Positions 14,159 to 32,244 of a stretch of 64,000 nt of DNA are shown in pieces. Each line of letters starts with the position of its first letter. Within the stretch, counting starts at the first letter, position 1. Below the pieces are notes generated by a model. That model saw only the letters and a program-made list of their open reading frames with translations. It made no database searches and was not told where the DNA came from. Both the position numbers and the translations under genes were made by a program. The stretch covers positions 62,001 through 126,000 of the forward strand of contig DUMA01000017.1 of assembly GCA_012840135.1 (NCBI GenBank). The letters are read 5' to 3'. Source of the DNA: Thermoanaerobacterales bacterium. Its GTDB lineage: Bacteria; Bacillota; Thermosediminibacteria; Thermosediminibacterales; Tepidanaerobacteraceae.

Positions 14159-14183
14159 GGCATTACCTCCACACAAGAATATA

Positions 14184-14921: not shown

Positions 14922-15509
14922 TTACCTTTCCTTTACGGCCTCTTTCTGAATCGAAAGATTACCCCATCTCTTCATATTATCAATTTCTATCCCGAATTGG
15001 TCGAGAACCCTTCCTACCGTCTGGTTTATTATGTCATCAATGGTCTCAGGTTTTGTATAAAATGCTGGTACCGGAGGCAAGATGGTAACTCCGATTTGCG
15101 ACAGTTTTAACATGTTTTCAAGATGCATGGGATTCAGCGGTGTCTCTCGCACCATGAGGATTAGTCTTCTCTTTTCTTTTATAGTCACATCAGCTGCCCT
15201 TATGATAAGGTCCTCGGTATAGCCATGGGCTATACCCGACAATGTCTTCATACTGCATGGGGCCACAATCATGCCGTCACATTTGAAAGACCCGCTGGAT
15301 ATGGGGGCGGCCATATCAGTTTCATCGTAGACATAGTCCGCCAGAGCTTCGACTTCCGAAATACTATAGTCAGTTTCGGTTTTTATGGTCTCCTTCCCCC
15401 ATTTGCTTATTATTAGATGAGAAGTCACCTGATTTTTCTTCAATTCTTGTAAAATTTTAATGCCGTATATAACTCCCGATGCTCCAGTTATTGCTACTAT
15501 AATATTCAT
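14922..15509 (-). CDS. ubiX: UbiX-family flavin prenyltransferase (copy A)
   Basis: N-terminal IIVAITGASGVIYGI; CSMKTLSGIAHG; RETPLNPMHLENMLKL. Confidence 0.92.
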   Translation of the reverse strand: MNIIVAITGASGVIYGIKILQELKKNQVTSHLIISKWGKETIKTETDYSISEVEALADYVYDETDMAAPISSGSFKCDGMIVAPCSMKTLSGIAHGYTEDLIIRAADVTIKEKRRLILMVRETPLNPMHLENMLKLSQIGVTILPPVPAFYTKPETIDDIINQTVGRVLDQFGIEIDNMKRWGNLSIQKEAVKER

Positions 15510-15538
15510 TTATTTTCCCCCTTTATCAAATTGTATTT

Positions 15539-16933
15539 TCATATTTTAAACCTCAGACCAATCGCCGGCCAGTAATATTTAGCCATTATAGCAATTATTA
15601 TAATATATGCAATTATTATGAGGAAACCGGCTTTAAATAGATCTTTCGGCTTATAATATCCGTAAGCATAAGTAGCCAGATTGGAGGAGGATTGGGAAGG
15701 GGTAAGTATGCCAAGTTCGCTGGCCAAAACGCAAATCATGCCTGTCCATTGAGGGTTTATACCAAGAGCCCTCGACATAGACGTAAATAATGGGAGTAAA
15801 GTTGCCACTACTCCGGTCATATTGGTCATGCCCAGCCTGACAAAAACAGTAATGAGAATTACCCCTGCTGCAATTACAAACTCATCGGTTATCCCCACAT
15901 TCCCGGCTATATTATTCACAATAAAATCAACAGCCTTTGTTTTAGTTATACTTTGTGCCATAGCCAGGCCTGAACCGAATAATATAACCGTGCCCCATTC
16001 CAGTCTTCTGAATGTTTCTTTCCACTCCATTATGTCAATGCCCGGTACAAACATCAAAGTCCCGGCTATAAACTCCACCGGTACAAAATCATCTATCCCC
16101 TTAAACCATGCTATAAAAAGTATAATGATTATAACAATCAGTTTCCATTCTTTATTAGTTATCTTGCCCAGCTTCTGTATTTCTTCTCTCACCCAATCTA
16201 AATTGTCCGATAATCTACCTTTGAAGGGAAAAAGCTTTACGATAATTATATATATAAAAAACATCGCCATTACATTAATTGGCAAGTTCGTTTTTATCCA
16301 CGAAAGATATGTCCAATTATACCCCAATTCTTTTTGAAAGTAAGCAGCAGCATAAATGGTAGCCGAGGCTCCTACCAGAATGGTACCGCTAGAAATCAGA
16401 GAAACTGCAGGGATGATAATTGAGCAGGCTTTAGCGAAATTCGTATTTTCTCCAGTCTCTATTTTCTGAACAAGTCCCATGCATATTGCTGCCAGAATTG
16501 CAGTCCTTGCAGCCACGGCCGGTACAAGAAATACAAAGATAAATGTCAAAATTTCCATAAGAAAAAGTAAAAAATGTAGGTTTCCCTTTGCCAAACTTAA
16601 TACTTTCAAAGCAACCCTTCGAGCAAAACCCGTTTTTTCCATCCCTATAGTAATAATAAATATTCCTACAAGCCGCCATATAATTGAATCGCCCATTACA
16701 ATAAAAACTTCTTCCGGTGACAGTATTCCCAATATAGGAATTAGACAAAATATGAGCATAGCTGTTATGGTGGAGTGTATCATCTCCGTCATCCATAAGA
16801 ATATAGCGATAAACATAACATCCAGGGCCCTAACCGCCATCATATCCATGCCCATATTCCTAACTAAGAAAACATCTATTAGAAGTAGCGCAACAGTAAA
16901 AGAAATGATTTTTTTTATATTTCCTTTCATCCT
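15539..16933 (-). CDS. SLC13/DASS-family permease
   Basis: Multi-spanning; MTEMIHSTITAMLIF, VGASATIYAAAYF, ASELGILTPSQSSSNLATYAYGYYKPKDLFKAG; MKGNIKK taken as likely start. Confidence 0.75.
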   Translation of the reverse strand, partial: RMKGNIKKIISFTVALLLIDVFLVRNMGMDMMAVRALDVMFIAIFLWMTEMIHSTITAMLIFCLIPILGILSPEEVFIVMGDSIIWRLVGIFIITIGMEKTGFARRVALKVLSLAKGNLHFLLFLMEILTFIFVFLVPAVAARTAILAAICMGLVQKIETGENTNFAKACSIIIPAVSLISSGTILVGASATIYAAAYFQKELGYNWTYLSWIKTNLPINVMAMFFIYIIIVKLFPFKGRLSDNLDWVREEIQKLGKITNKEWKLIVIIIILFIAWFKGIDDFVPVEFIAGTLMFVPGIDIMEWKETFRRLEWGTVILFGSGLAMAQSITKTKAVDFIVNNIAGNVGITDEFVIAAGVILITVFVRLGMTNMTGVVATLLPLFTSMSRALGINPQWTGMICVLASELGILTPSQSSSNLATYAYGYYKPKDLFKAGFLIIIAYIIIIAIMAKYYWPAIGLRFKI

Positions 16934-17126
16934 ACCTCCCCTACCTACAGTGTGGTTTAAATAAAAAAGAGGGGCGGGCAAAAAGCTGATTTACAGGCCC
17001 TTTGCCCTTTTTTATATATAAAACCCCTGCTCACTGGCTTTTTTAATTAATACATCGTACGTAATTCACATATGAATTAAGTTCTACAATGAATCTACTA
17101 CTGAATCTAACATGTTTTCATCAATC

Positions 17127-18542
17127 TTATTTATCTATAAAATCATTTATATCAAATTTATCGGCTCCCATAGCGTGGCTCCGGGTAAAATGATCTCTTG
17201 CATCAGGTTCTGTAAGAGGTGGTTTTGTGGCATCTATACCCATCTTTGAGCCGCGCCGGATCTGCGGGTGGACAAAATCCGGTGTTATCAAGGGCAGTGA
17301 AGCATCCAAATGGTGGCCGTGGGTCCCCGGAATGATAAATACATCCCTTTCCGGGTTTACTCGTGTAGATAAGGACCAAATAAGCTCTTTTTCATCATGT
17401 GGATCTATATCGTCATCCACTACTATTGCTATCTTGGGATGGATATAAGGGCTGGAAAGGGCAGCTAGTGCGACATCTTTTGCTTCTCCCTGGATTTTAG
17501 GAGTAATTTGAACAACAATAATATGACTTCCTCCGGCACATGGAATAGCAACAACATCTTTAACGTCTACAAAACCGCCTACATCTTTTACCCTATTATA
17601 AATAACTACTTCCATTGGCAGCCCGTCAAGAATTTGGGATGAAGCTATTGGTTTTCCACCCTGCAAGGCATAATATATGGCATCTTTTCTCCGGGTAATG
17701 GCTGTTACAATAATATAGGGGTTTTTACCGGCACCGGCTCTGGCATATCCGGTATGCTCGGCAAATGGCCCTTCTTCTTCTCTTTCAAAGGGCGGTACAT
17801 ATCCTTCTATGATGATTTCTGCATCTGCAGGCACTTCAAGATCTACAGTTTCACATTTTACAGTCCTTACAGGTTCTCCTAAAAAAGTCCCAGCCATTTC
17901 AAATTCATCGACGCCAAAGGGGAATGTCCAGCAGCATGTGAGATAATATATGGCATGATGTCCTATCACCAATGCTATAGGCATGGGTTCATTTCTCTCT
18001 TCATATTTTTTATAGATCATATCCATGTGTCTACCGGGGTGCATCAATACCCCCAGTTTGTTTTTGCCTTTCAATTGGTGACGGTGCAGTGATACATTTT
18101 GGATGCCCGTCTCCGGGTCTTTTATTATCGCCATAGCACCACCCATGTAAGGTCCGGCATCAAGATTTGACATGACATGAATGGGAAGCTCATAAAGATT
18201 TACTTCATCACCGGTTTTTATGATTTCTTTCACCGGCCCAGTTTCCACCAATTGCTTTTTTGTAGGCCCTTTTTTCAAAAGTTCATTCATAGTCGGTATG
18301 AATTCCCTCGGGGTTGTACCAACAGCCAATGCAAGTCTTTTTCTGCTGGCTTCCGCATAACTTACTGCCTTCCATCCGGGATAACCTTTAAGATTTTCAA
18401 AAAAAGTTGCCTTTCCTAATTTATTCTCCCCTTGCCATGCAATACCAGCCAGGTTAGTCTTTGGGTCAACCTCTTTTTTAATATTCACTATCTCTCCCGC
18501 TTCTTCCAGTTGTCTTAAGAAAGTTCTAAGATCTTTAGCCAT
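17127..18542 (-). CDS. UbiD-family decarboxylase (1)
   Basis: UbiD architecture; E-G-P-F-A-E-HTGY catalytic motif; DDIDPHDEKELIWSLSTRV. Confidence 0.92.
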   Translation of the reverse strand: MAKDLRTFLRQLEEAGEIVNIKKEVDPKTNLAGIAWQGENKLGKATFFENLKGYPGWKAVSYAEASRKRLALAVGTTPREFIPTMNELLKKGPTKKQLVETGPVKEIIKTGDEVNLYELPIHVMSNLDAGPYMGGAMAIIKDPETGIQNVSLHRHQLKGKNKLGVLMHPGRHMDMIYKKYEERNEPMPIALVIGHHAIYYLTCCWTFPFGVDEFEMAGTFLGEPVRTVKCETVDLEVPADAEIIIEGYVPPFEREEEGPFAEHTGYARAGAGKNPYIIVTAITRRKDAIYYALQGGKPIASSQILDGLPMEVVIYNRVKDVGGFVDVKDVVAIPCAGGSHIIVVQITPKIQGEAKDVALAALSSPYIHPKIAIVVDDDIDPHDEKELIWSLSTRVNPERDVFIIPGTHGHHLDASLPLITPDFVHPQIRRGSKMGIDATKPPLTEPDARDHFTRSHAMGADKFDINDFIDK

Positions 18543-18629
18543 TAATATTCTCCTTCCATAGTTTATTATTTAATTAGTCTTACAAGATTAAATATTTAAC
18601 AGGTCCCCAACTAACCTGACATAAAATCT

Positions 18630-19673
18630 TTATCCCAAAGGATGTTTTTCCAATATATTAACCATTTCTTTCCATCTGTTGTACTCATCTTGGCAGTATT
18701 TTGACCATTCTTCCTGTGTCATAGGCTCTCCGGCAGGTGATTTAACTTCTTTAACCCTGTTTCTGAACTCTTCGCTGCTGGCAGCCTGAACAAGTTTATC
18801 GGCCATAATTTTTACAATGTCATCCGGTGTATTTGGTGGTGCAAATAATCCAATATGGAATTCAATCACAACGTCGTATCCCTGTTCTTTGAAAGTTGGT
18901 ATATCCGGAGCGATGCTGAGCCGTTCATTTTTAGATACCGCAAGTATTTTTGCCTGACCGGCATCTTGAGCCGTAATCGCTGTTACAAGACTTGCCAAAA
19001 TAGCATCTACATGACCTCCTTCAAGTGCTGCTAATGCTTCACCCGAACTACCGTAAGGAACTAAATTGAATTTTACACCTGTGACTTCCGACAACATAGC
19101 ATAAGTCATATGGTCAGTCGAATATGCACCGCCGCTTAATCCCAGCTTCATAGTTTTTGATTTGGCGGCCTCTACAAAATCTTTAAGGGTTTTATAGGGT
19201 GAATCGGCTCTTACTACCAAAGGTGAACAATCGTCATTTACCCATGACGCTACTGGTTTAAACTCATTAAACTTGGCTTTTAGATTGGGAAGAGTCAAAT
19301 CTGTAAAAATCATAGTCGGTATCGGTGCGGCCATGAAAGTGTAACCATCTGGTTTTGCTCCCGCTACATAATTATACCCTACAGACATTCCCCCACCAGG
19401 CCTGTTTTCAACAACAACTGGCTGGCCTAAAGCATCTTGTAAAAACGGCTGTATCGTTCTTGTAGAGGTATCAACGCCGCCTCCAGGGTTATAGGGAACA
19501 ACAATAGTGATCGGTTTTGTTGGGTAATTTACAGCCCCTTCAGAGCTTTGGTTTTCCTCTTTTTTATCGTTGGTTGCACCGCTATTTTGACCACATCCGG
19601 ACAATGAAAAAATTAGTAACCCGACAAGTATTAAAAGTAATCCTTTTTTAAAAAATCCTTTCATGTTAAACAA
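18630..19673 (-). CDS. tctC: Tripartite tricarboxylate transporter substrate-binding protein (TctC-type lipoprotein)
   Basis: Lipobox LSGCGQ; PTKPITIVVPYNPGGGVDTSTR. Confidence 0.92.
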   Translation of the reverse strand: MFNMKGFFKKGLLLILVGLLIFSLSGCGQNSGATNDKKEENQSSEGAVNYPTKPITIVVPYNPGGGVDTSTRTIQPFLQDALGQPVVVENRPGGGMSVGYNYVAGAKPDGYTFMAAPIPTMIFTDLTLPNLKAKFNEFKPVASWVNDDCSPLVVRADSPYKTLKDFVEAAKSKTMKLGLSGGAYSTDHMTYAMLSEVTGVKFNLVPYGSSGEALAALEGGHVDAILASLVTAITAQDAGQAKILAVSKNERLSIAPDIPTFKEQGYDVVIEFHIGLFAPPNTPDDIVKIMADKLVQAASSEEFRNRVKEVKSPAGEPMTQEEWSKYCQDEYNRWKEMVNILEKHPLG

Positions 19674-21165
19674 GCGCCTCCTTCTTATTTTTATTTTTTA
19701 GCTGACGGTAAATGCTCTGGCCAACTGAAGCTATGACAAGGATTATGAATATCCATGATAACGGGCTTACAAAAAGACCCTTTATCGAACCACCAACTGC
19801 AAGCATTGCTCTGTTCATATTCTCTTCCATAATCGGCCCCAACACAAATCCAAGTACAACTGTCACTATAGGATAATCGAGCTTTTTCATGACATATCCA
19901 AGAATGCCTGTTAATACAACTACAACCACATCATTCACACTTACGTTAATAGAAAGTGCCCCTGCAAAACATAGAATTGTAACTATGGGTGCAACTATTC
20001 CTAAAGGCATTACTGTCACTTTTGCCGCAAAAGGCAGAACCGCTAAACCCATGATAATTATAAAAAACCCTGCTACTAAAAGCCCTATGAAAAATGTGTA
20101 AACTAAATCGGCCCTTTGCGAAAGAAGTTGTGGACCGGGCATTATCCCGTGAGCTATCATCCCCGCCAGAATTACCGCTGCGGTATCAGAACCGGGTATG
20201 CCTAATAGGAGTGTAGGTAAAAGTGAACCACCTACTGTAGAGTTGTTGCTAACTTCCGGTGCAATCACCCCCTCTACACTTCCTTTCCCAAAATCTTCTG
20301 GGTGTTTCGAAGTACGTTTGACTTCATTGTAAGCTAACCATGTAGAAATAGAGTATCCTACCCCTGGCATAACGCCTACCAGAAATCCTATTATAAAGGA
20401 TTTTATGGTTGCACCTAAATATTTAAACGGTAGTATCATACCTTCCCAGACACTTCCGCTGAGCTTATTAACTTTTGATATTGATATCTCTTTACCAACC
20501 ATCATACCAATAACTTCAGATACACCGAAAAACCCTATGATTATAGCCACAAGTTCAAGGCCGCTTATCAAATAAAGGCTACCAAATGTATATCTATACG
20601 TCCCTGTTACCAGTTCCTGGCCAACAAAACTCAATAACAGCCCTATACATCCACCGATAAATCCTTTGACCATGCCTGTATCAGATAGGCTTGCTATAAT
20701 GGTAAGCCCTAATACGGTAATCCAGAAGTATTCAGACGATCCCAATGCCAGCATAGGCTTTAACAATACCTGGGCGCCAACTACCAATAGAATGGTGGAA
20801 CCTATACTTCCAATGAAGGATGCTCCAGTACTAATGCCCAGAGCGGTTTTTGCCTGGCCGTTTTTAGCCATCATGTAACCATCCATACAGGTCGCAGCAG
20901 ATCCTGCCGTTCCAGGAACATTTAAAAGGATGGCCGAAAGGCTACCACCGTAAACACATATAGTAAATATTGTGCCCATTATGATCAAGGCGACAGCAGG
21001 ATCAAGATAATAGGTTATGGGGATCAAAAGGGAAATCGTCAAAGCAGCGCCCATTCCGGGCAAAGCCCCTGTTATATAACCGATTACCGAGCTTAGGATT
21101 AACCACCCTATGGTTGATGGTTGAATTAACGCGGTTAATCCCCTAATCCAAAGCGAAAAATCCAC
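19666..21165 (-). CDS. tctA: Tripartite tricarboxylate transporter large permease (TctA)
   Basis: GALPGMGAALTISLLIPITYYLDP; GIPGSDTAAVILAGM. Confidence 0.93.
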   Translation of the reverse strand: MDFSLWIRGLTALIQPSTIGWLILSSVIGYITGALPGMGAALTISLLIPITYYLDPAVALIIMGTIFTICVYGGSLSAILLNVPGTAGSAATCMDGYMMAKNGQAKTALGISTGASFIGSIGSTILLVVGAQVLLKPMLALGSSEYFWITVLGLTIIASLSDTGMVKGFIGGCIGLLLSFVGQELVTGTYRYTFGSLYLISGLELVAIIIGFFGVSEVIGMMVGKEISISKVNKLSGSVWEGMILPFKYLGATIKSFIIGFLVGVMPGVGYSISTWLAYNEVKRTSKHPEDFGKGSVEGVIAPEVSNNSTVGGSLLPTLLLGIPGSDTAAVILAGMIAHGIMPGPQLLSQRADLVYTFFIGLLVAGFFIIIMGLAVLPFAAKVTVMPLGIVAPIVTILCFAGALSINVSVNDVVVVVLTGILGYVMKKLDYPIVTVVLGFVLGPIMEENMNRAMLAVGGSIKGLFVSPLSWIFIILVIASVGQSIYRQLKNKNKKEALV

Positions 21166-21179
21166 TTAAACCACTCCTT

Positions 21180-21662
21180 TTAGAAGCCCCAAGGGCCTTT
21201 TGGAAAGTTTGTTCCTCCAATTACATTGAAAAGATAATAAACTAAGATAGGGGTTATAATTGAAAAAACACTTGTCGTAAACCAGGACTTAACTCCTCTT
21301 AGACGCATCAAATAAACCATGGCCAACAGTGAAGAAACAATAAAACCTAAAAATTTTAATAACAATGGGTAAATAAGAATACAGATGATAGTCATCAATA
21401 ATGGGTTTCTATAAAACGGAACTGTAGCATTAGCACTTATACCTGTGTCTTTATTGCTTTTTTCAAACGTCATTTGCTTCCATGAATTCCAAAATTGAAC
21501 TAAACCCATTATGGTTAGTAGTAATGTCACTGGAATTGGCAGAATCCTTGCTCGAGGTGAGAATCCAAAAGCCATTACGAGGGCAACCAGTCCCAAAATT
21601 GTAACAAAGGCCGCAAAATATAGTTCGTGTTGACTCGAAACTGCTTTTGATTTTTTAGACAT
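21180..21662 (-). CDS. tctB: Tripartite tricarboxylate transporter small permease (TctB)
   Basis: Small four-TM protein adjacent to tctA; GFSPRARILPIPV. Confidence 0.8.
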   Translation of the reverse strand: MSKKSKAVSSQHELYFAAFVTILGLVALVMAFGFSPRARILPIPVTLLLTIMGLVQFWNSWKQMTFEKSNKDTGISANATVPFYRNPLLMTIICILIYPLLLKFLGFIVSSLLAMVYLMRLRGVKSWFTTSVFSIITPILVYYLFNVIGGTNFPKGPWGF

Positions 21663-21767
21663 ATCATGTTCCTCCGCCTAATTTGTATTTGAATATGTTT
21701 TAATGTGTAAAGAAATAAATTTATCACCCCTTTTTTACTAAACTTTTTCTCGCAATATAAAATAAAG

Positions 21768-21797
21768 GACCTATATTAACAATAATATAGGTCCCCA
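21768..21797 (-). terminator. Rho-independent terminator
   Basis: Minus strand GGACCTATATT..AATATAGGTCCTTTATTTT. Confidence 0.75.
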
Positions 21798-21837
21798 ACT
21801 AACCTAAAATAAACTATAAATGTATTTTATTTTTTCT

Positions 21838-22377
21838 TTATACTTCCAAAGCTGCATTTATTAATTCGGCGGCACACATTGGAGTTATTGTACGCGGAAT
21901 TTGAATCAAACTCTTCCCTCTGTTATCACCTTTTTTTACTAATCCTATTAGTTCTTCGGGAATGGCGTATACATCTACATCCATATCCTTCATAGCACTT
22001 ATAGGACCTGCAGAAAATTTATAATCTAAAACTCCTGTCCTTATTATCTCACTCAAAAAATAATTAGCACATCTTAGATGCTCGGCTACTACCCCCATTT
22101 TCTGTCCTTTGGGCACTGCATTGAGCATCCTGACCCCTACTGGCAGGATGGTGAGCTCTGCTCCAATCACTTTTTTATCAGTATTTTTAAACTTTTCCTT
22201 TATAAGAGGAAATCTCATCCCATGGGCATAAGAAATATAAATATCTGCATCGGTTTTGTCAAGATCCTCAAACCAGCATACATCTACCTTTGCGATATCC
22301 TTTAAAATACCACCTACTCGGCGCTGCAGTAAATCAACCGTTCCTATATGCGTTCCAACTACCATAGCTTTAACCAT
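21838..22377 (-). CDS. Uncharacterised 179-aa protein (possible AroM/Asp-Glu racemase-like or PrpR_N-like fold)
   Basis: Intact ORF; alpha/beta pattern GTHIGTVDLLQRRVGGIL...RTITPMCAAELINAAL; family not securely recognised. Confidence 0.5.
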   Translation of the reverse strand: MVKAMVVGTHIGTVDLLQRRVGGILKDIAKVDVCWFEDLDKTDADIYISYAHGMRFPLIKEKFKNTDKKVIGAELTILPVGVRMLNAVPKGQKMGVVAEHLRCANYFLSEIIRTGVLDYKFSAGPISAMKDMDVDVYAIPEELIGLVKKGDNRGKSLIQIPRTITPMCAAELINAALEV

Positions 22378-22535
22378 AACAGCACCTCATAATTATGGTA
22401 TGTTTATTTTATGTAATATAAAATTCGACATCATATTTAAAATTCCTTCTTGTTGTTAATTTTTTTATTGTTTTTTTATACTATATTTTTATAATAGCGG
22501 ATATTGCTTATATCTAAATCTCATTTTGTTTTATT

Positions 22536-23783
22536 TCAACTCTGTATTTCATTATTTTTTATCATTCTTCCATTTACATATATGGCCGCAGCTCCTGCCA
22601 GCATCAAGGCGGCAGTGATCGGGAATATTGATTTTATTCCAATAAGGGCTGCAATTATCCCGCCAATCATCGGCCCGCTGAAATTTCCTATGGCAGTAAT
22701 ACCTGAAGCAACCCCGTATACGCTTCCCCGATTTTCCTCAGGACAGGATTTTGCTATCATGGCATGAGCGCTGGGCAATATTCCTGCATCAAATCCTGCC
22801 GACAAAAATCTCAGCACCGCCAGTTGTAAGATATTATTCGTAAAGACCTGGAAGAATGTAAATAACCCGGAGCCAACGATTGATATCAAAAGTATCTTCT
22901 GATGACCGATTTTATCGCCTAGTTTACCCCAGTATGGTGCCATTATAACCACAGCAACAGAAGATATGGCAAAAATGATTGAGACGGCCGTATTTAGCCT
23001 TGTTCCCCTATAGATGCTTTTTATGAATATGGGCAACATGGCATCCATGCTCTGAAGGCCGAACTGGGAAAGAAATATGGCAAGAAACATAAAGAGTATT
23101 ATTGGAGACTTGTTTATGATTTTTATAGCTTCACCAAAACCGAAATCCTTTTTTTTCGATTTTCCCTTATTATCTGTCGTAATATCTTCATTTACTTTTA
23201 TGACATCATTGCTGAACTTTTCTTCCTTTACCCCAAAGAGTATAAAAGGAAATCCGATTAATGTTATACATCCGGCAATTATGAAACTCCCGCGGTATCC
23301 GAAAATATCTGCAATGATACCGCCGATGGCGGGCCCGAATATGGTACCCCCGGTCCTGCCGGTCTGAAGGACCCCTATGGCGTAGCCCAGATGCTCTACC
23401 GGCGTAGTGGTTGCAATTAGAGCAGTGGCAGCGGCATTAAAACCCGAAAGAGTCCCCATCAAAAATCTGAGCCCAAGCAGCTGATAAGGATTTGTGACCC
23501 CATACATAAAAAGATATGATATGCCGATAGCAAGGATCGTCCTCAGGGACATAAGCTTTCTTCCATATTTATCGCTTAAACTTCCCCACATAGGTGAAAA
23601 AAGGGCCTGGGCCAGAAAATTCACCGAGGACAACAGCCCCGCCCAGAAAGCTATCTTCTCAGGTAGATTAACTCCCAGCTCCTGAAGAAAAAAAGGGAGA
23701 TACGGTTTTATTGTGGTGGTAGATATTCTTATTAAAAATTGTGCGGCAAACAGTATTATTAGGTTCTTTTTCCACTGCTCCAT
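22536..23783 (-). CDS. MFS transporter (multidrug-efflux-like)
   Basis: 12-TM pattern; SPMWGSLSDKYGRK; GVLQTGRTGGTIFGPAIGGIIAD. Confidence 0.88.
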   Translation of the reverse strand: MEQWKKNLIILFAAQFLIRISTTTIKPYLPFFLQELGVNLPEKIAFWAGLLSSVNFLAQALFSPMWGSLSDKYGRKLMSLRTILAIGISYLFMYGVTNPYQLLGLRFLMGTLSGFNAAATALIATTTPVEHLGYAIGVLQTGRTGGTIFGPAIGGIIADIFGYRGSFIIAGCITLIGFPFILFGVKEEKFSNDVIKVNEDITTDNKGKSKKKDFGFGEAIKIINKSPIILFMFLAIFLSQFGLQSMDAMLPIFIKSIYRGTRLNTAVSIIFAISSVAVVIMAPYWGKLGDKIGHQKILLISIVGSGLFTFFQVFTNNILQLAVLRFLSAGFDAGILPSAHAMIAKSCPEENRGSVYGVASGITAIGNFSGPMIGGIIAALIGIKSIFPITAALMLAGAAAIYVNGRMIKNNEIQS

Positions 23784-24505
23784 GTTTACAAAATGTCCCC
23801 CATCTATAATTCTATAAATATAATAACATAAAAAAGGGGTTGAGATTTTAAAAACATAATATATATTTCAACCCCTGCTCACTGGCTATTTTGAACATTT
23901 TTTTATTTAAATATTTTAAATAGTTTTTTCTATACAGCCGCTTTCTCAATGGAAAGATTACCCCATCTTTTCATATTATTAATTTCTATCCCGAATTGGT
24001 CGAGAACCCTTCCTACCGTCTGGTTTATTACGTCATCAAGGGTCTCAGGTTTTGTATAAAATGCGGGTACCGGCGGCATGATGGTAACTCCGATTTGCGA
24101 CAGTTTTAACATGTTTTCAAGATGCATGGGATTCAGCGGCGTCTCTCGCACCATGAGGATTAGTTTTCTTTTTTCTTTTATAGTCACATCGGCTGCCCTT
24201 ATGATAAGGTCCTCGGTATAACCATGGGCTATACCCGACAATGTCTTCATACTGCAGGGAGCCACAATCATGCCATCACATTTGAAAGACCCGCTGGATA
24301 TGGGGGCGGCCATATCATCTTCATCATAGACAAAATCTGCCAAAGATTCGACTTCTTCAACAGTATAGTTAGTTTCTGTTTTTATGGTTTCTTTTCCCCA
24401 TTTACTTATCACAAGATGGGAACTTACGCCTTTTTTATTCAGCTCTTCTAAAATTCTTATACCGTATATTGCACCAGATGCTCCACTTATTGCAACAATA
24501 ATGTT
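23760..24505. repeat. Segmental duplication, copy B
   Basis: Partner of 14772-15509. Confidence 0.9.
23836..23877 (-). terminator. Terminator after ubiX copy B (one stem mismatch relative to copy A)
   Basis: Minus strand GGGGTTGAAAT...ATCTCAACCCCTTTTTTATG. Confidence 0.75.
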
Positions 24506-24508
24506 CAA
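23930..24508 (-). CDS. ubiX: UbiX-family flavin prenyltransferase (copy B; likely TTG start at 24508)
   Basis: Near-identical to copy A; AAGGGG RBS before TTGAACATTATTGTTGC. Confidence 0.9.
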   Translation of the reverse strand: MNIIVAISGASGAIYGIRILEELNKKGVSSHLVISKWGKETIKTETNYTVEEVESLADFVYDEDDMAAPISSGSFKCDGMIVAPCSMKTLSGIAHGYTEDLIIRAADVTIKEKRKLILMVRETPLNPMHLENMLKLSQIGVTIMPPVPAFYTKPETLDDVINQTVGRVLDQFGIEINNMKRWGNLSIEKAAV

Positions 24509-24521
24509 GTTAATGCCCCTT

Positions 24522-25031
24522 TCATTCGAAAAACACGCCACTATATAGCTGGGCTTTCAAAAGAATGATAAACATTACGTATATTCCCGCCCAGGTGCCC
24601 AATGATACGATGATTGAAGTCGATAGCTTTTCTTTCTCTCTAAACATTAAATACAAAAACACAAAAATGGGAATTGCTATTATAAACCCTAATATATATA
24701 TTGAAAGTAACAATCCTATGATCCATAAGGTAATATTTAATTCTCTTGTGATGGGCTCTTTTTTTTCTTCCTTGGTCTGTTTGTTATCCCCCTTTTTCTT
24801 TTTCTCTTCTATTTCAAAAAGTTCCATTTGCTTCATTGTATTTATTTTTTTATCTATAGCAGGAATATAATAACTTGCCAGAAGCAATGCCGATAGAAAA
24901 ATGGCTGGAATACCAATTACTAACGGAGCTACACGTGCTTGTGGATTATAGCCCATTGCAACTCCTGTGAATACCAAAAAAATTATTAAAAGAAGACCTG
25001 AAAATCCTATTTCAATTTTTTTAGAATTCAT
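24522..25031 (-). CDS. tctB: TctB-like small permease subunit
   Basis: Four-TM small subunit, 4-nt overlap with tctA; GYNPQARVAPLVIG. Confidence 0.82.
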   Translation of the reverse strand: MNSKKIEIGFSGLLLIIFLVFTGVAMGYNPQARVAPLVIGIPAIFLSALLLASYYIPAIDKKINTMKQMELFEIEEKKKKGDNKQTKEEKKEPITRELNITLWIIGLLLSIYILGFIIAIPIFVFLYLMFREKEKLSTSIIVSLGTWAGIYVMFIILLKAQLYSGVFFE

Positions 25032-26512
25032 GCCGTTACACCGCCCTTTTGAGTTTTTCCAGTTTTTATAAACGGCATTATTATTGTAACAATTGTTACT
25101 ACTAAAAGTATGAAGGTGATGGGTCGGAACAAAAAGGCACCTTTATACAGCATTAAAGATAGTTGCAAGTTTCTTTCTGCGATATTTCCAAGAACCAATC
25201 CTATTATTAAAACAGCCCTTGAAAAGTTGTATTTTTTCATCTGGTAGCCGATTATACCAAAAATAACAGCAGCTATTACATCACCGAACTTGCCGTCAAC
25301 TGCATAAGCTCCTACCAGCCCTATTACTGATACCATTGGAATAAGTAGTGCCCCTCGGATTTGTGCAATTTTAACCAATTTATTTGCAAAAATAAGCGCT
25401 ATTCCTGTGCCTATTATGTTAGCCAAAGCGACTATCCATACCATTGTAAATGTCAAATCGAGTTTTGTAGTAAGCATTTCAGGCCCCGGTATTATTCCTA
25501 TTATGAGGAATGCACCTAACAATATAGCCATACCAGAACTGCCGGGAATGCCAAAGCCCACTGTAGGAATTAATGCTCCTCCTTCTTTAGCATTATTGGC
25601 ACTTTCGGGAGCAATGACTCCTTCCACTATCCCTGTGCCGAATTTTTCCGGGTGTTTTGATGTTTGGACAGCGTGACCATAGGCTAAAAAGCAAGCCACA
25701 TCTCCACCCAGGCCCGGAATCATGCCTATTACAGTACCAATAGCGCTGCACCTCAATGTTAACCACCAGTGTCTGAATACGTCTTTTATGCCTTCGATTA
25801 CTCCACCTTTTGCCTCTATGGTTTCTCCCTGTATACTCCCGCCTTTAACACCTAATTCGATCATTTCAGCCAATGCGAATAATCCGATGACCACTGGAAC
25901 AAGATCTATTCCATCGTAAAGATACATCGTGCCGAAATTAAATCTCACTATTCCTGTTATTGGGTCATAACCGATTAAAGAAATTAATAAGCCCAAACAT
26001 CCTGCAATTAACGATTTAAAAAGTGACCCTCCGCCAACTACTGCAATAAAAGCAACTCCCAGTAAAGCCATCATGAAAAACTCCGGAGGACCGAAGGCCA
26101 ATACTATCTGTTTCATCACCGGAAGTGAAAGACCTAATATCAGGGCTCCAAAAACTCCTCCCACCGCAGAAGCCATTAAGGAATTGCCTAGTGCCCTTCC
26201 CGCCTGGCCTTTCTGAGTTAATGGGAAACCATCGAGTACAGTAGCGGCATTCATTCCACTTCCTGGTGTATTTAAAAGAACGGCCGTAATAGAGCCTCCT
26301 GTAGCCACCGGTGCATGAGCTCCTAGTAAAAAGCTAAGAGCAAGTCTAGGTTCCATGCCGAATATAAAGGGAATTAATACTGAAAGAGTAAAATTCCCAC
26401 CTAGGCCTGGTACCGCTCCAAAAAATAATCCAAGTAATATCCCTGCCAGCATGTATATAGGTGCAGGCCATATAAAAACATTCAGCAGGCCATGCACCAT
26501 TGCTTCTAACAT
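25028..26512 (-). CDS. tctA: TctA-like large permease
   Basis: GAVPGLGGNFTLSVLIPFIFGMEP; GFGIPGSSGMAILLGAF. Confidence 0.93.
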   Translation of the reverse strand: MLEAMVHGLLNVFIWPAPIYMLAGILLGLFFGAVPGLGGNFTLSVLIPFIFGMEPRLALSFLLGAHAPVATGGSITAVLLNTPGSGMNAATVLDGFPLTQKGQAGRALGNSLMASAVGGVFGALILGLSLPVMKQIVLAFGPPEFFMMALLGVAFIAVVGGGSLFKSLIAGCLGLLISLIGYDPITGIVRFNFGTMYLYDGIDLVPVVIGLFALAEMIELGVKGGSIQGETIEAKGGVIEGIKDVFRHWWLTLRCSAIGTVIGMIPGLGGDVACFLAYGHAVQTSKHPEKFGTGIVEGVIAPESANNAKEGGALIPTVGFGIPGSSGMAILLGAFLIIGIIPGPEMLTTKLDLTFTMVWIVALANIIGTGIALIFANKLVKIAQIRGALLIPMVSVIGLVGAYAVDGKFGDVIAAVIFGIIGYQMKKYNFSRAVLIIGLVLGNIAERNLQLSLMLYKGAFLFRPITFILLVVTIVTIIMPFIKTGKTQKGGVTA

Positions 26513-26543
26513 AATAACCCTCCTCTGCTGCTAAAAATGACTT

Positions 26544-27596
26544 TTACTTTTTCAATGCCTCCTTTAAGATATCTTTTATTCCGTTTGCCTGGGACATTGT
26601 ATCTTTGATCAATGGTTCTATTTCTTCTCCTTTTAAAGGATTGACGGGCCTTTTAGCTTTCTGTGCGGTTTGAACAAACTCCGGATCATTAAGGGCTTTA
26701 TCTAATGCCTCCCTTAATATCTTTGCGATATCCTTCGGCATATCAGGAGGACCTACAATACATCTGTCTAATGTAAAAATGTTTGTTATGGCTTTTACCA
26801 AATCTTTGTTACTACCCTCTACCACATCTTCCGCTGATGGAACGCCTGTTAGTTCTTTAACTTTTTCGTTGGAAAGTTGAAGAATTGGTATTAAATCTTT
26901 CGAGGTTAATAAGCTTTCAACCGTGGAAAGAGTAGCTTGGGTGCCATCTACTTCACCTCTTACTGCGGCAAGGCTTGCCTCATGAGAGCCATTGTATCCC
27001 GCGATGAGATCTAATGGGACATTCAACGCTTTAAAAAGCACGATGGCTCCATAATAGTCATCGCTGCCCACTCCTGTAAAGGATATCTTTACGGGGTTTT
27101 GGGCTTTTTTAAGGGCATCGATGGATTTGTATTCACTTTTACTGTTCATGGCAAGGATATGAGGTTCGGAAGATACCCGGGCCAGCCATGTAAACTTGCC
27201 TAAATCAAACTTTACACCTTCACTTTCTGTCACTTGTGAAAAAACCATACCGGGAACATTGATAATACCGATGGTCAATCCATCAGGTTTTTCAAGATAT
27301 ACCTGATTAGTACCAACAATACTTCCAGCTCCGGGGACATTTTTTACCACCACTGTTACTCCTGAGATATATTTTTGAATAAATGGAGCCAACATACGGG
27401 CATAGGCGTCAAATCCTCCGCCAGCCGTATATGGCACTATAAAAGTAAGGTTCTTATTCTTGAAAAAATCTGCAGCATTTCCCGAATTCTGAGTTGAGCT
27501 TGAAGATTGTTTATTTCCACACCCCGTTAAACTTGTCATTATCAATAAAATTACAATAATCAATATTAGAAATCGGTTATATCTAAGAGAAAACAT
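26544..27596 (-). CDS. tctC: TctC-like substrate-binding lipoprotein
   Basis: Lipobox LTGCGNK; NLTFIVPYTAGGGFDAYARM. Confidence 0.9.
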   Translation of the reverse strand: MFSLRYNRFLILIIVILLIMTSLTGCGNKQSSSSTQNSGNAADFFKNKNLTFIVPYTAGGGFDAYARMLAPFIQKYISGVTVVVKNVPGAGSIVGTNQVYLEKPDGLTIGIINVPGMVFSQVTESEGVKFDLGKFTWLARVSSEPHILAMNSKSEYKSIDALKKAQNPVKISFTGVGSDDYYGAIVLFKALNVPLDLIAGYNGSHEASLAAVRGEVDGTQATLSTVESLLTSKDLIPILQLSNEKVKELTGVPSAEDVVEGSNKDLVKAITNIFTLDRCIVGPPDMPKDIAKILREALDKALNDPEFVQTAQKAKRPVNPLKGEEIEPLIKDTMSQANGIKDILKEALKK

Positions 27597-27659
27597 TATT
27601 TTCCCTCCTTTTTTGGCCAGGGGCGGTAAAATTCCACCCCTGGAATTTAAAATTTAAAA

Positions 27660-27878
27660 TTACTGTGTTTCCTTAACCTCTTTTTTTATCTTTTCAGCCA
27701 GTGCCCTTAAATCTCCAAAGGAAGGTGACCATACGGCATATACATCGGGGCTTTCATCTCTGTAGAAGTATGTTAGACACTGAGGGCACATCAATGGATC
27801 ATTGCGATCCCATAATAGTTTTTCTGCAGTAAATTTGGCCTTGCATTTAGGACAGGTTGACCAGAATATCTGTGGCAT
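27660..27878 (-). CDS. Small zinc-ribbon protein, UbiD-associated (BsdD/VdcD-like)
   Basis: 72 aa, CPKC...CPQC, directly downstream of ubiD. Confidence 0.75.
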   Translation of the reverse strand: MPQIFWSTCPKCKAKFTAEKLLWDRNDPLMCPQCLTYFYRDESPDVYAVWSPSFGDLRALAEKIKKEVKETQ

Positions 27879-27901
27879 TTATATCGCCTCCAAATTTTAA
27901 T

Positions 27902-29353
27902 TTAATACGTCCAGCGATCTCTTACCGGAACTTTGTCAAAAATCTCTTTTGATACGTACTTATCCCAATTGGCTTTTAATCTTTCTTTTGTTTCAGCAGG
28001 AACTGAAACTACTTTTTCGAAGGGCCTATCGACTGGTTCGGTGGCGTCTATGATCATAACAGAACCTTTCATGGGATGAACTGTTGAGGGATCATTGCGA
28101 TTAGATTTTACATTTTTCAAAATCTGTACCCTGTCATCGGGTTGAACTCTCATGGAAATAGCCCAGTACACTTCTCTCAAATCGAAGGGATTAATATCTT
28201 CATCCACAACGATGACATATTTTACATGTTCTCCATAGGCCAAAGCCATATTGGCCACTCTCAAGGGTTCTCCTTCAGCCTTCTTCTTCATGGATATGAT
28301 AGCCCAGGTATGGAAAAGGGAACTGGCAGCAATAACTCTAGGATATTTTGATTTGAGCCATGCCTGAAGCCCTACTGAATGTGCAATATCTTCCAGCATA
28401 TGATAAGATGTCCATATAGCCTGGAAAATGGCGTCTTTTCTCATATTAATAGCTGTGATTCTACCTACCGGCTGGCGAGTCTGGCAGCCATAATAGCGGG
28501 GCCATTCGCCGAACATTCCTTCATTATCCCGTTCACCAGGCCACATTTCGCCTTCCACAACTATTTCTGCATCGGCAGGAATTAAGAACTTATCTCCCCA
28601 CGTAGTAGAAGCAGTAAGCCTTAAAGGCTGACCTAGGACTCCACCCACTTGCTCATATTCATCCATAGCTATGGGTGTCCTAATGGCAGCCCCTTGATAA
28701 AATCCGGGGTGATGGCCTAAAATACATGCAAATGGCAACGGCTGGTTCAATTCCTGAGCCCTGTTATAATACTGGCCTGCATGGAGCTCATGTTCGGGAG
28801 AAATCTTAATGGTCACTCTCTGGGGGCCATGATACAGAGTTCTATGATATGCGAGGTTATACCTGCCGGTATCCGGATGCTTAAAGGCTACTATGGGTGT
28901 AAACCATCCCGGTTTTGCATCTTCAGCAAAATGCATAAGTAAAGGTAATTCTCCCACATCAGCATCCTTGCCAGTCCTCACTACCTCTTTGATGGGAGCT
29001 TCTTTCTCTGATATAATCATCGGTTTTACAGCTACTTGCGCCCTTTTGCCGAGTTCTTCTATTACATCCTTGGAACTGGTCTTATCAAGTTCAAGGCCGA
29101 AAGCTATAGCGGCTCTTCGATAACTACCTGGATCTGCAGAGGTAATGAGGCGACCTTCAAATTTCCCACCATTCAACTTTTCTACATTGTTGAATAATAT
29201 CATGGGAAACTTGCCTTTATCTTTGAAAATATCAAGAAAAGTATTGACCTCATAGTTTGCAGGATAAACTCTTTCATTAATCTCTACCAATTCTTCTGGT
29301 GCCAGCTCTTTTACCTTGTTGATAAAATGTCTTAAATCGTATATTTCGGGCAT
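27902..29353 (-). CDS. UbiD-family decarboxylase (2)
   Basis: UbiD architecture; NEGMFGEWPRYYG variant catalytic motif; DEDINPFDLREVYWAISMRVQPD. Confidence 0.92.
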   Translation of the reverse strand: MPEIYDLRHFINKVKELAPEELVEINERVYPANYEVNTFLDIFKDKGKFPMILFNNVEKLNGGKFEGRLITSADPGSYRRAAIAFGLELDKTSSKDVIEELGKRAQVAVKPMIISEKEAPIKEVVRTGKDADVGELPLLMHFAEDAKPGWFTPIVAFKHPDTGRYNLAYHRTLYHGPQRVTIKISPEHELHAGQYYNRAQELNQPLPFACILGHHPGFYQGAAIRTPIAMDEYEQVGGVLGQPLRLTASTTWGDKFLIPADAEIVVEGEMWPGERDNEGMFGEWPRYYGCQTRQPVGRITAINMRKDAIFQAIWTSYHMLEDIAHSVGLQAWLKSKYPRVIAASSLFHTWAIISMKKKAEGEPLRVANMALAYGEHVKYVIVVDEDINPFDLREVYWAISMRVQPDDRVQILKNVKSNRNDPSTVHPMKGSVMIIDATEPVDRPFEKVVSVPAETKERLKANWDKYVSKEIFDKVPVRDRWTY

Positions 29354-29403
29354 TTAAAATCCTCCCTTTACAAAATTGTTTATTTAATAAATAATTTGCT
29401 TTC

Positions 29404-29565
29404 TTACCCCTGCTCCTCGATTATCTCTTTGGCTTCTTCGTCGATGAATCTTTCTCCGCAGAATGGGCACAGGAGTTTGCACTGTTTTTTATGTCTGAAG
29501 TCGTCCTTTGATGCATAAAATTTCTTTTCGCATTTGGGGCATACCACCCAGAATATCCTGGCCAT
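29404..29565 (-). CDS. Small zinc-ribbon protein, UbiD-associated
   Basis: MARIFWVVCPKCEKKFYA...LLCPFCGERF, start ATG 29565. Confidence 0.72.
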   Translation of the reverse strand: MARIFWVVCPKCEKKFYASKDDFRHKKQCKLLCPFCGERFIDEEAKEIIEEQG

Positions 29566-29567
29566 GT

Positions 29568-30968
29568 CTACACCTCCTGTATCCATTCTTCTAGTTTTAT
29601 CCTGTCCATTACTTCCTGAGGCACTTTTATGCGTTCGGCATAGGGGCGACTTACGGGCTTTGTGGCATCGATGAGCATCTTATCGCCTACGGCGTGTATG
29701 GTGGATGACGGGTCGAGAGACCCTCCCCTAACCTTTTTGATGATATCTACATCCTCGCTGGCCTGGACCCTCGTGGCCACAGCCCAAAGCACTTCTTTCT
29801 CGTTAAAGGGGTCGATGTCGCTGTCAACTACAATCACATGTTTTAATTCATCATGATACGGCAGTGAAGCGATGGCAGCCACTTTTCCCTCTCCATCCAC
29901 TTTTTTGTCTATGGAGATATAGGCGTGGAAGCGGCAGCATCCCGAGATGGGGAAGTGTACTGCCTTTACTCCGGGCACGGATTTTTTCACTTCCTCGTAT
30001 ATGCCGGCTTCTTTGGGGATGCCACCCAGGATAGAGGTATCGGGATGGCCCACCAGTATGTTCATGTAGTAGGCATCTTTTCGGTAAGTTATAGCTTTCA
30101 CTTTCACCACCGGTGACCAGCGCTGGGGCCCGTAGTATCCGGTGAATTCTCCGAAAGGACCTTCCGCGTCCCGGAAGTTGGGGATCACTTCGCCTTCCAC
30201 CACTATCTCGGCATCGGCAGGTACCAGGAGTTTTTCTCCAAAAGCCTCGGATGGCACCAAACGCAGGGGTTCGTTCAATACCCCTCCTATTACCTCATAT
30301 TCGTCGGTTTCCATGCTTACGAGAGCTTCGGAACCGAGATAAAAGCCGGGGTGGTGACCCAGCACGTGGGCTATGGGTAGGGCTTCCCCTTTTTGAGCTG
30401 CTCTCACACAGTAATTCCACAGATGTCTCGGGGACATCCAGAGTCCCAGCTCATCTTTTCCGCGTATCAGCATCCGGTGATGGGAAGAATTGTATACCCC
30501 CGTATCGGGGTCGGGTGCTATGACTGCATCAACCAGGTACGGATATCCATCCATTTCATGATGGGTTAATACCGGCAGCTCCCTCAAATCCACTTCATCG
30601 CCTACTTTTACGACTTCCTTTACCGGAGCTTCATCTTTGCTAACTATGATGGGCTTTATGAGATTTTGGCTTCTCTTGGCAAACTGAAAACTGGTCTCCA
30701 TGCGCCACTGGTCTTTTGAAAGGTCCATGGCCACCGCACATTTTTGTCTTGTGGCAAACATATTTGTAACTACCTTGAAGGGGCTGAGCTCACCCTTCAA
30801 GTTTTTAACCTTCTCAAATATTAAGAGAGGAAATTTGTCCTGATTTTCAAGGTGCTGCTGTATTGCTGTGATTTCGAATTTGGGATCTACTTCTCTTTTC
30901 ACTCTAACTATGTCTTCCGGCATTTGTCTTTCCAAATCCTTTAGAAAAGACCTCAGATCTTTTGACAT
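29568..30968 (-). CDS. UbiD-family decarboxylase (3)
   Basis: AEGPFGEFTGYYGPQRWSP; DSDIDPFNEKEVLWAVATRVQ. Confidence 0.93.
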   Translation of the reverse strand: MSKDLRSFLKDLERQMPEDIVRVKREVDPKFEITAIQQHLENQDKFPLLIFEKVKNLKGELSPFKVVTNMFATRQKCAVAMDLSKDQWRMETSFQFAKRSQNLIKPIIVSKDEAPVKEVVKVGDEVDLRELPVLTHHEMDGYPYLVDAVIAPDPDTGVYNSSHHRMLIRGKDELGLWMSPRHLWNYCVRAAQKGEALPIAHVLGHHPGFYLGSEALVSMETDEYEVIGGVLNEPLRLVPSEAFGEKLLVPADAEIVVEGEVIPNFRDAEGPFGEFTGYYGPQRWSPVVKVKAITYRKDAYYMNILVGHPDTSILGGIPKEAGIYEEVKKSVPGVKAVHFPISGCCRFHAYISIDKKVDGEGKVAAIASLPYHDELKHVIVVDSDIDPFNEKEVLWAVATRVQASEDVDIIKKVRGGSLDPSSTIHAVGDKMLIDATKPVSRPYAERIKVPQEVMDRIKLEEWIQEV

Positions 30969-31249
30969 TTCTTCACCTCTTCGTTGTTGAGAGTTTAATT
31001 AAACGAATAACAAAAAGAAATAAGACCGATTCACCTCTCTTTCAAATATTTACAATTGATTCTTTGTTGATTTATTTTTTTCAATTATTAATTACGACAC
31101 AACTTGACATATTCCCTTGCTACAATTAACTGAAATTGAGGTTTTTCGGTCTTTTTTCAAGACAAATGATTTTTTTTACAAGGAAGAGGCATACATTGTA
31201 AATATGTTTACCGCGTTTTTTACGTCAACGTCGCAATCCGAAAGACTTT

Positions 31250-31723
31250 TCAGCATATTCTAAGACCGCCGCTTTTACTTTTGAATCCCCTTATCAAAAT
31301 ATAGCTCCTGACACTGGTGATCCCGTTTAGAGAATATATGGTTTCAGACAGAAACCTTTCAAGATGCTCCTTGTTCTTTAGTATTGCATGCACGTGGAGG
31401 GTGCTGGGTCCGCTCATTTGATTCACACTCTGCACATATTTTTCTTCCGCCAGGGTCTTTGCCACCGTTTGAAGGTGCCTGGGCTCCACGTCTATTTCAA
31501 AAAAGGCCGACATTTCAAGGCCCATTTTATATGGATTGATGACAATAGTAAACTTTTCAATGATGCCTTTTTCAATCAATATGTTCACTCTTTCCCTGAC
31601 CGCCGAGCGGGACATGTTGAGTTTTCTTCCGAGCTCCGCATAGGATATCTTGCCATCATCCTGCAGGAGGCTTAAAATTTTCATGTCGATGTCATCAATG
31701 TCATTATTGAACATAGTCACCAT
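31250..31723 (-). CDS. Lrp/AsnC-family transcriptional regulator
   Basis: DIDMKILSLLQDDGKISYAELGRKLNMSRSAVRERVNILIEKGII. Confidence 0.92.
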   Translation of the reverse strand: MVTMFNNDIDDIDMKILSLLQDDGKISYAELGRKLNMSRSAVRERVNILIEKGIIEKFTIVINPYKMGLEMSAFFEIDVEPRHLQTVAKTLAEEKYVQSVNQMSGPSTLHVHAILKNKEHLERFLSETIYSLNGITSVRSYILIRGFKSKSGGLRIC

Positions 31724-31869
31724 CCTTTAAAATATATGAGATTTAGGCCGTATCGATATGAATGGTTTTTATTGCATTCATGTGTCAACATCCATAAAAG
31801 CAAAAGATTGAAATTTAAATTCTCATCAAGCAGTGTATTGCAGGGGTCGGTTTTAAAACAGGCCTGCAA

Positions 31870-32244
31870 TTAAAAATGTTCATAAATGTTTTCACACAAT
31901 ATTTTGCAATAATCTTTAAATCTTTGTATATCTTCTATTGTAGCATTATCGATATGCACCCCGGCGGTAACCACCACCGTCTGCTTCAACCTCCTGCACA
32001 ATTCCTCCGCCAGGGGCACGGCAAGGCCATCGTCCTTGTGACCCAGCAAGTTTAAAACCGAAGTGGTGCAGCTTATGCCGCCATCACCTTTGAGGCTGGC
32101 TCGGGGCTGGCTCACGGCTACCGAGCCGATGTGGGGCCTTTCACCGCCTCCAAGGTAAATGTTCACACCTTCTTGCGTAACAGTAACGACCGCTTCCAGA
32201 TAAAACTTGCCTTCCCCAGCTTTTTCGATAAAGACATGATTCAT
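31870..32244 (-). CDS. Candidate LpdD-like prenylated-FMN chaperone
   Basis: GGGERPHIGSVAV and TAGVHIDNAT resemble LpdD (GGxxPHIGxV / TAGIHVxxxT) as recalled; adjacent to ubiD/ubiX island. Confidence 0.65.
   Translation of the reverse strand: MNHVFIEKAGEGKFYLEAVVTVTQEGVNIYLGGGERPHIGSVAVSQPRASLKGDGGISCTTSVLNLLGHKDDGLAVPLAEELCRRLKQTVVVTAGVHIDNATIEDIQRFKDYCKILCENIYEHF

Follow-up and report, generated by a model that had tools for sequence, protein, structure and literature searches.

Whether a dense array of UbiD and UbiX genes encodes one acid-processing system with duplicated parts, or several systems that have come to lie side by side, is the question raised by a block of about 17 kb in a Thermoanaerobacterales bacterium (assembly GCA_012840135.1). 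The block occupies positions 14922-32244 of the window, i.e., the whole stretch of 64,000 nucleotides analysed here (contig DUMA01000017.1, positions 62,001 to 126,000); coordinates are window positions unless preceded by a locus label. The original prediction had described it as one co-directional, dedicated island with duplicated transport and prenyltransferase modules and at least two parallel substrate arms. Its gene list is borne out by Pfam and NCBIfam models: three UbiDs, two UbiX, two small CxxC/CxxC proteins, an LpdD homologue, two TctCAB transporters, a DASS permease, an MFS permease and an Lrp regulator all match the expected families, and every one of these genes lies on the minus strand. 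With orf179 (21838-22377), a conserved member of the block missing from the earlier list, the 17 genes then named or implied become 18, all of them open. Read 5' to 3' on the minus strand, their order is LpdD, Lrp, UbiD1, ZnR1, UbiD2, ZnR2, TctC_b, TctA_b, TctB_b, UbiX_b, MFS, orf179, TctB_a, TctA_a, TctC_a, UbiD3, DASS and UbiX_a, where ZnR1 and ZnR2 are the two zinc-ribbon proteins. The single island with duplicated transport, however, did not hold up. Judging from gene content, modular recurrence, mosaic base composition, clade placement and catalytic residues, the block is, with a probability of roughly two in three, a composite in which two independent modules for acid (de)carboxylation, labeled A and B in this analysis, are combined with one orphan enzyme pair.

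The composite reading follows from the base composition at third codon positions (GC3) and from the separate recurrence of the modules in other Bacillota. GC3 is 0.52-0.54 in LpdD, Lrp, UbiD1 and ZnR1, close to most flanking genes (0.5-0.67), and 0.30-0.45 in all genes from UbiD2 through UbiX_a (14.9-29.35 kb), so that the boundary falls exactly between UbiD1/ZnR1 and UbiD2. Nor are the two transporters duplicates of each other. Both set b (TctC_b, TctA_b and TctB_b, 24522-27596) and set a (TctB_a, TctA_a and TctC_a, 18630-21662) are complete tripartite tricarboxylate transporters (TTT), with TctA, TctB and TctC all over the cut-offs of PF01970, PF07331 and PF03401, but the sets are unrelated, at 35% identity for TctA, 29% for TctB and 32% for TctC. 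The sole recent copy in the block is that of the flavin prenyltransferase, as had been predicted: UbiX_a (14922-15509) and UbiX_b (23930-24541), which score 283 and 280 bits against TIGR00421 (cut-off 108.9), share 87.5% of amino acids and 89.6% of nucleotides, a near-identity that points to recent duplication or to gene conversion keeping both alike. UbiX_b is 59-64% identical to UbiX proteins of module A in other genomes and 73% identical to the module B UbiX of genome G425.

Across genomes, the full formula of module A is LpdD-Lrp-UbiD1-ZnR1, optionally followed by a transporter and UbiX. In the window it is represented by the LpdD homologue (31870-32244; PF21758, E=2.1e-34), the Lrp/AsnC regulator (31250-31723; Lrp/AsnC domains), the core enzyme UbiD1 (29568-30968; PF01977) and its adjoining zinc-ribbon partner ZnR1 (29404-29586, likely start 29565; CPKC-x20-CPFC). 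Orthologues of UbiD1 are 72, 69, 67, 65 and 64% identical, those of ZnR1 stand beside UbiD1 in other genomes, and Lrp orthologues (58-60%) directly precede UbiD1 in four of them. Soudan_17 and BRH_c20a share the order Lrp-UbiD1-ZnR-TAXI-TRAP permease-UbiX-LpdD, G381 has the module A-like order Lrp-UbiD1-ZnR-TRAP-TAXI-UbiX, and G002, from the family of the window genome, has LpdD-Lrp-UbiD1 where a contig ends, its LpdD being 60% identical to that of the window. TAXI-TRAP importers occupy, in these relatives, the slot held by complete TTT sets in the window.

Module B, with the formula orf179-TctBAC-UbiD3-UbiX-DASS, comprises in the window orf179, the transporter set a, the core enzyme UbiD3 (17127-18542; PF01977), a permease of the DASS/sodium:sulfate-symporter type (15539-16981; PF00939, E=2.6e-50) and UbiX_a. 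G425 has it as orf179-isochorismatase-family hydrolase-TctBAC-UbiD3 (86%)-UbiX-DASS, with a DASS orthologue of 54%, and in G381 it lies on a different contig from the module A-like genes; orf179 orthologues of 57-58% head the module in both. Identities of 85-86% to UbiD3 can be found only in G381 and G425, followed by 54% in G044; nothing comparable occurs among the other genomes sampled from the phylum, none at that level in the window's own order within the sample, and a search on plasmids did not find it. Together with the low GC of the module, this distribution would be consistent with horizontal acquisition. The predicted parallel substrate arms, at least two in number, therefore stand on more than adjacency, each arm occurring by itself in other genomes.

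Some traits of the locus would suit one integrated pathway, with the three UbiDs working on related acids either sequentially or side by side and all transporters serving them: every gene is on one strand within 17 kb, the genome has no UbiX besides the two in the block, and these copies are still near-identical. Such a pathway is nevertheless unlikely, given that each module is found alone or on another contig elsewhere, that composition is mosaic, and that the positions associated with substrate specificity differ among UbiD1 (T/K), UbiD2 (-/H) and UbiD3 (S/M).

These positions lead to the enzymes themselves. All three block UbiDs exceed the PF01977 cut-off and retain the E-R-E triad together with the N/H/E residues for the metal and for prenylated flavin mononucleotide (prFMN). 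UbiD2 (27902-29353) is highly divergent, being 40% identical to UbiD1 and 42% to the nearest sequence found anywhere among 399 phylum genomes, and a search of the named genomes with UbiD2 alone returned no match. In a careful tree of 45 proteins, in which four reference enzymes (HmfF, VdcC, AroY and UbiD) were placed, UbiD1 and UbiD2 fall inside an 18-member clade (support 99/97; 99/96 for the part holding both), HmfF in a separate clade (100/99) and UbiD3 in a third with G381, G425 and G044 (100/100). The branch of UbiD2 is very long and its exact neighbour unsure, but it stays in the clade after removal of the long row L024; AroY and VdcC are likewise on long branches, with unsure positions. 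To the question whether all three would fall in characterized clades, an outcome that would have refuted the original prediction, the answer favours that prediction, in that none groups with any of the four references; PhdA, InD, Fdc1, HudA and Pcd were compared by phmmer score, outside the tree.

HmfF, a 2,5-furandicarboxylate decarboxylase (6H6V), is the closest solved structure for all three (332 bits for UbiD1, 192 for UbiD2 and 233 for UbiD3 by phmmer) and shares fold and triad with them, which would be the argument for assigning its function to UbiD1. This assignment is very improbable, considering that HmfF stands in a separate clade and that the H296/R304 positions, which HmfF shares as H/R with each of the five HmfF-clade relatives checked, are T/K in UbiD1, a gap and H in UbiD2, where a short deletion affects this region, and S/M in UbiD3; the histidine, there numbered H297, is reported to be key to furan specificity (PMC7976604). 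The HmfF-clade genes examined also differ in having no zinc ribbon beside them.

The UbiD1-related clade is set apart by the zinc ribbon. ZnR2 (27660-27878; CPKC-x18-CPQC), which has a C-terminal extension and is 35% identical to ZnR1, begins 23 bp past UbiD2. When a small open reading frame with CxxC-x(18-22)-CxxC directly downstream was looked for beside 112 UbiD genes in the fetched loci, a genuine ribbon was found for 12, making 14 with UbiD1 and UbiD2. Since UbiD1 served as the bait for collecting the loci, the outside set consists of the other UbiDs so reached, which do not sample the family at random; in this comparison, 14 of the 20 rows of the UbiD1-related clade have the ribbon vs none of 97 others (Fisher 8e-14, ignoring relatedness), and adjacency requires five changes on the tree vs 13.5 in shuffles. 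One regular-expression match, beside L060 (Pseudonocardia), was judged by its sequence to be due to chance and counted as negative; with one outside positive the value would be 1e-12. The ribbon clade extends over Bacillota, Actinomycetota and Myxococcota/Deltaproteobacteria. In other lineages its loci adjoin xanthine-dehydrogenase-family and CoA-synthetase-like genes (names that, the L030 enzyme excepted, are drawn from N-termini), and because of these neighbours the clade probably serves different pathways. In L030 (Candidatus Formimonas warabiya DCMF), a single cluster (L030:4815-14507) combines a ZnR, a three-subunit xanthine-dehydrogenase-family enzyme, the UbiD1 homologue, TAXI and a TRAP permease with a PucR regulator and split genes for a thiamine-pyrophosphate enzyme, and looks like a heteroaromatic pathway.

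An architecture of UbiD, UbiX and a two-CxxC protein encoded beside the UbiD recalls the vanillate/4-hydroxybenzoate decarboxylase VdcBCD (ShdBCD, BsdBCD), an acid decarboxylase system. There the zinc ribbon VdcD, whose CxxC motifs occupy residues 3-6 and 28-31, is an essential activator of VdcC and touches the ERE-triad loops (PMC8379154). The layout of ZnR1, with CxxC at 9-12 and 33-36, is nearly that of VdcD, and both ZnR1 (x20) and ZnR2 (x18) are built like the D subunit, i.e., small, with two CxxC about 21 residues apart and beside the C gene. In contrast, UbiD1, UbiD2 and UbiD3 reach 312, 220 and 309 bits against the VdcC model, far below its cut-off of 650, and stand apart from ShVdcC in the tree; VdcD was not among the NCBIfam or PDB matches of the ribbons, and a ribbon profile retrieved generic zinc fingers only from the PDB. 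By analogy, the ribbon likely works like VdcD; an identity as VdcD is unsupported by sequence or structure searches.

A second accessory protein is suggested by the LpdD homologue. LpdD is a chaperone that binds reduced prFMN (prFMNH2) and helps to activate UbiD, with a Mn site formed by H35, H61 and D63 (PMC10865409). The window protein, a PF21758 member, aligns H38, H69 and D71 at these three ligands, while its resemblance to the solved LpdD is remote (E=0.0013). UbiX, UbiD and an LpdD-type chaperone also make up the gallate decarboxylase LpdB/LpdC/LpdD of Lactobacillus plantarum; unlike that system, the block has a zinc ribbon beside the UbiD that the homologue accompanies, and adds carboxylate importers (TTT, or TRAP in relatives). 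We propose, tentatively and at odds a little short of even, that the UbiD1/UbiD2 clade is an undescribed two-subunit prFMN (de)carboxylase family with a dedicated ribbon activator that is not recognizable as VdcD, that module A uses both ribbon and LpdD chaperone, and that the substrates are other than those of the four tree references.

From the observed gene content, gene order, clades and residues, a scheme of interactions, reaction direction, export and regulation can be inferred. Module A is the native-looking part of the block. UbiX would make prFMNH2, which LpdD would probably carry to UbiD1, a UbiD that may load it poorly by itself; the ribbon would probably be a permanent small subunit of UbiD1, holding the ERE loops or stabilizing the active form as VdcD does for VdcC, and the Lrp protein would probably respond to substrate or product. 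In module B, TctCAB would import a carboxylate to be decarboxylated by UbiD3, which has no zinc ribbon, while UbiD2-ZnR2 with TctCAB_b is a third pair, which resembles module A in type and evolves fast. The net reaction is likely to be carboxylate in, and CO2 and decarboxylated product out via the DASS and/or the MFS permease; the latter (22536-23783; PF07690 (MFS_1), E=9.9e-69) is probably of the efflux type and may serve export, its best NCBIfam model being the generic multidrug efflux protein MdtG, at a score below cut-off. The block has no ring-cleavage genes. Its most likely function is predicted to be to take up aromatic or heteroaromatic acids and decarboxylate them.

UbiD reactions are reversible, and the block enzymes could instead carboxylate aromatic or heteroaromatic compounds to start their breakdown, a role that has been suggested for the carboxylases of benzene and naphthalene. 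Subsurface Bacillota are among the relatives, and the neighbours of the UbiD1 clade elsewhere, described above, would suit such a route. It is an improbable one here, as the carboxylate importers TctCAB and DASS adjoin the block enzymes, the genome has no xanthine-dehydrogenase-family large subunit, the block has no CoA ligase, and the HgdB-type matches of the genome could not be assigned to a benzoyl-CoA reductase.

Several points weigh against the composite reading and the partnerships proposed within it. Because intergenic gaps reach 146-281 bp, the block probably consists of several transcription units. Three members of the ribbon clade (L033, L035 and L047) have no ribbon directly downstream, so the ribbon is not universally required there; in strain DCMF it lies about 3.8 kb upstream of the UbiD1 homologue, within the same cluster. 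A weak AlphaFold model of ZnR1 (predicted local distance difference test score of 73) did not retrieve VdcD. Finally, the hydrolase of the isochorismatase family that lies between orf179 and TctB in G425 (L136:6475-7173) and G381 (L018:6048-6764) has no counterpart in the window, and for this reason the pathway of the window's module B may differ from theirs.

Related genomes record part of the history of the site. In G001, a complete genome of the window's genus (IlvD 97%), the site reads IlvD, LpdD (90%), a 98-bp piece matching the interior of the MFS gene at 90%, and the flanking gene (scar region L130:16678-17372), about 8.0 and 9.1 kb being missing relative to the window on either side of the piece. 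Because an internal fragment flanked by two missing stretches is left, G001 is best read as having lost the block from an ancestor that had it. That a sister genome kept only LpdD and an MFS remnant, and that the branch of UbiD2 is so long, would also suit a fortuitous accumulation of unrelated genes at a hotspot, partly decaying; however, all large genes are open, the catalytic residues of the three UbiDs are intact and gene order within modules is conserved across genera, which leaves little room for this explanation. G007 and G008 belong to a different genus of the family; in them no island genes separate IlvD from the flanking gene, and the site holds instead a 188-aa gene of low GC (0.33-0.34; L132:3556-4122, L133:3319-3885), from which it can be suggested that it may accept foreign DNA repeatedly. 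Elsewhere in the window (4293-14176), a pair of neighbouring, very long genes (2055 and 1239 aa), probably encoding cell-surface proteins, stands beside an SLH-domain protein; four family genomes keep this gene order, and in G001 the 2055-aa gene is split.

Within the block, no Pfam or NCBIfam family was found for orf179, and a structure search returned weak and unspecific resemblances to Asp/Glu-racemase-like and binding-protein-like proteins, with no match at E<=0.001; its model has two similar alpha/beta halves, with invariant cysteines C34, C103 and C168. An inverted repeat of 14 pairs followed by a T-rich tract (21765-21796, minus strand), between orf179 and TctB_a, is a candidate terminator or attenuator; the total number of terminator-like inverted repeats in the region is not above that in shuffles.

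Genome-wide, there are four UbiD domains, the fourth being on contig C18 (L026:8030-9499). It belongs to the same family as the block enzymes but to a different locus, where it adjoins a UbiA-family gene; it passes the menaquinone-pathway model TIGR03701 and groups with E. coli UbiD (100/100). No UbiX was found in the window genome outside the block, including near this gene; the third flavoprotein match, a 401-aa open frame on C18, is judged by its length to be a CoaBC-type protein. As a UbiD family member, the C18 enzyme presumably needs prFMN from the island's UbiX. G001 retains a menaquinone-type UbiD (85%) at the syntenic site, and in the 72% of that genome that was read (2.44 of 3.40 Mb) no UbiX was found, a result that applies to this portion and is no claim of absence. 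The only two UbiX genes of the window genome sit in a block that a sister species has lost.

While the chemistry is known, the ribbon-linked UbiD clade and the composite locus are new. It has been difficult to isolate some UbiD enzymes in an active state, and the suspicion falls on accessory proteins. A clade tied to a ribbon, and in some members also to LpdD, supplies concrete sets of partners for co-expression; it could show whether activation of the VdcD type has more than one origin, and could bring new substrates within reach of (de)carboxylation.

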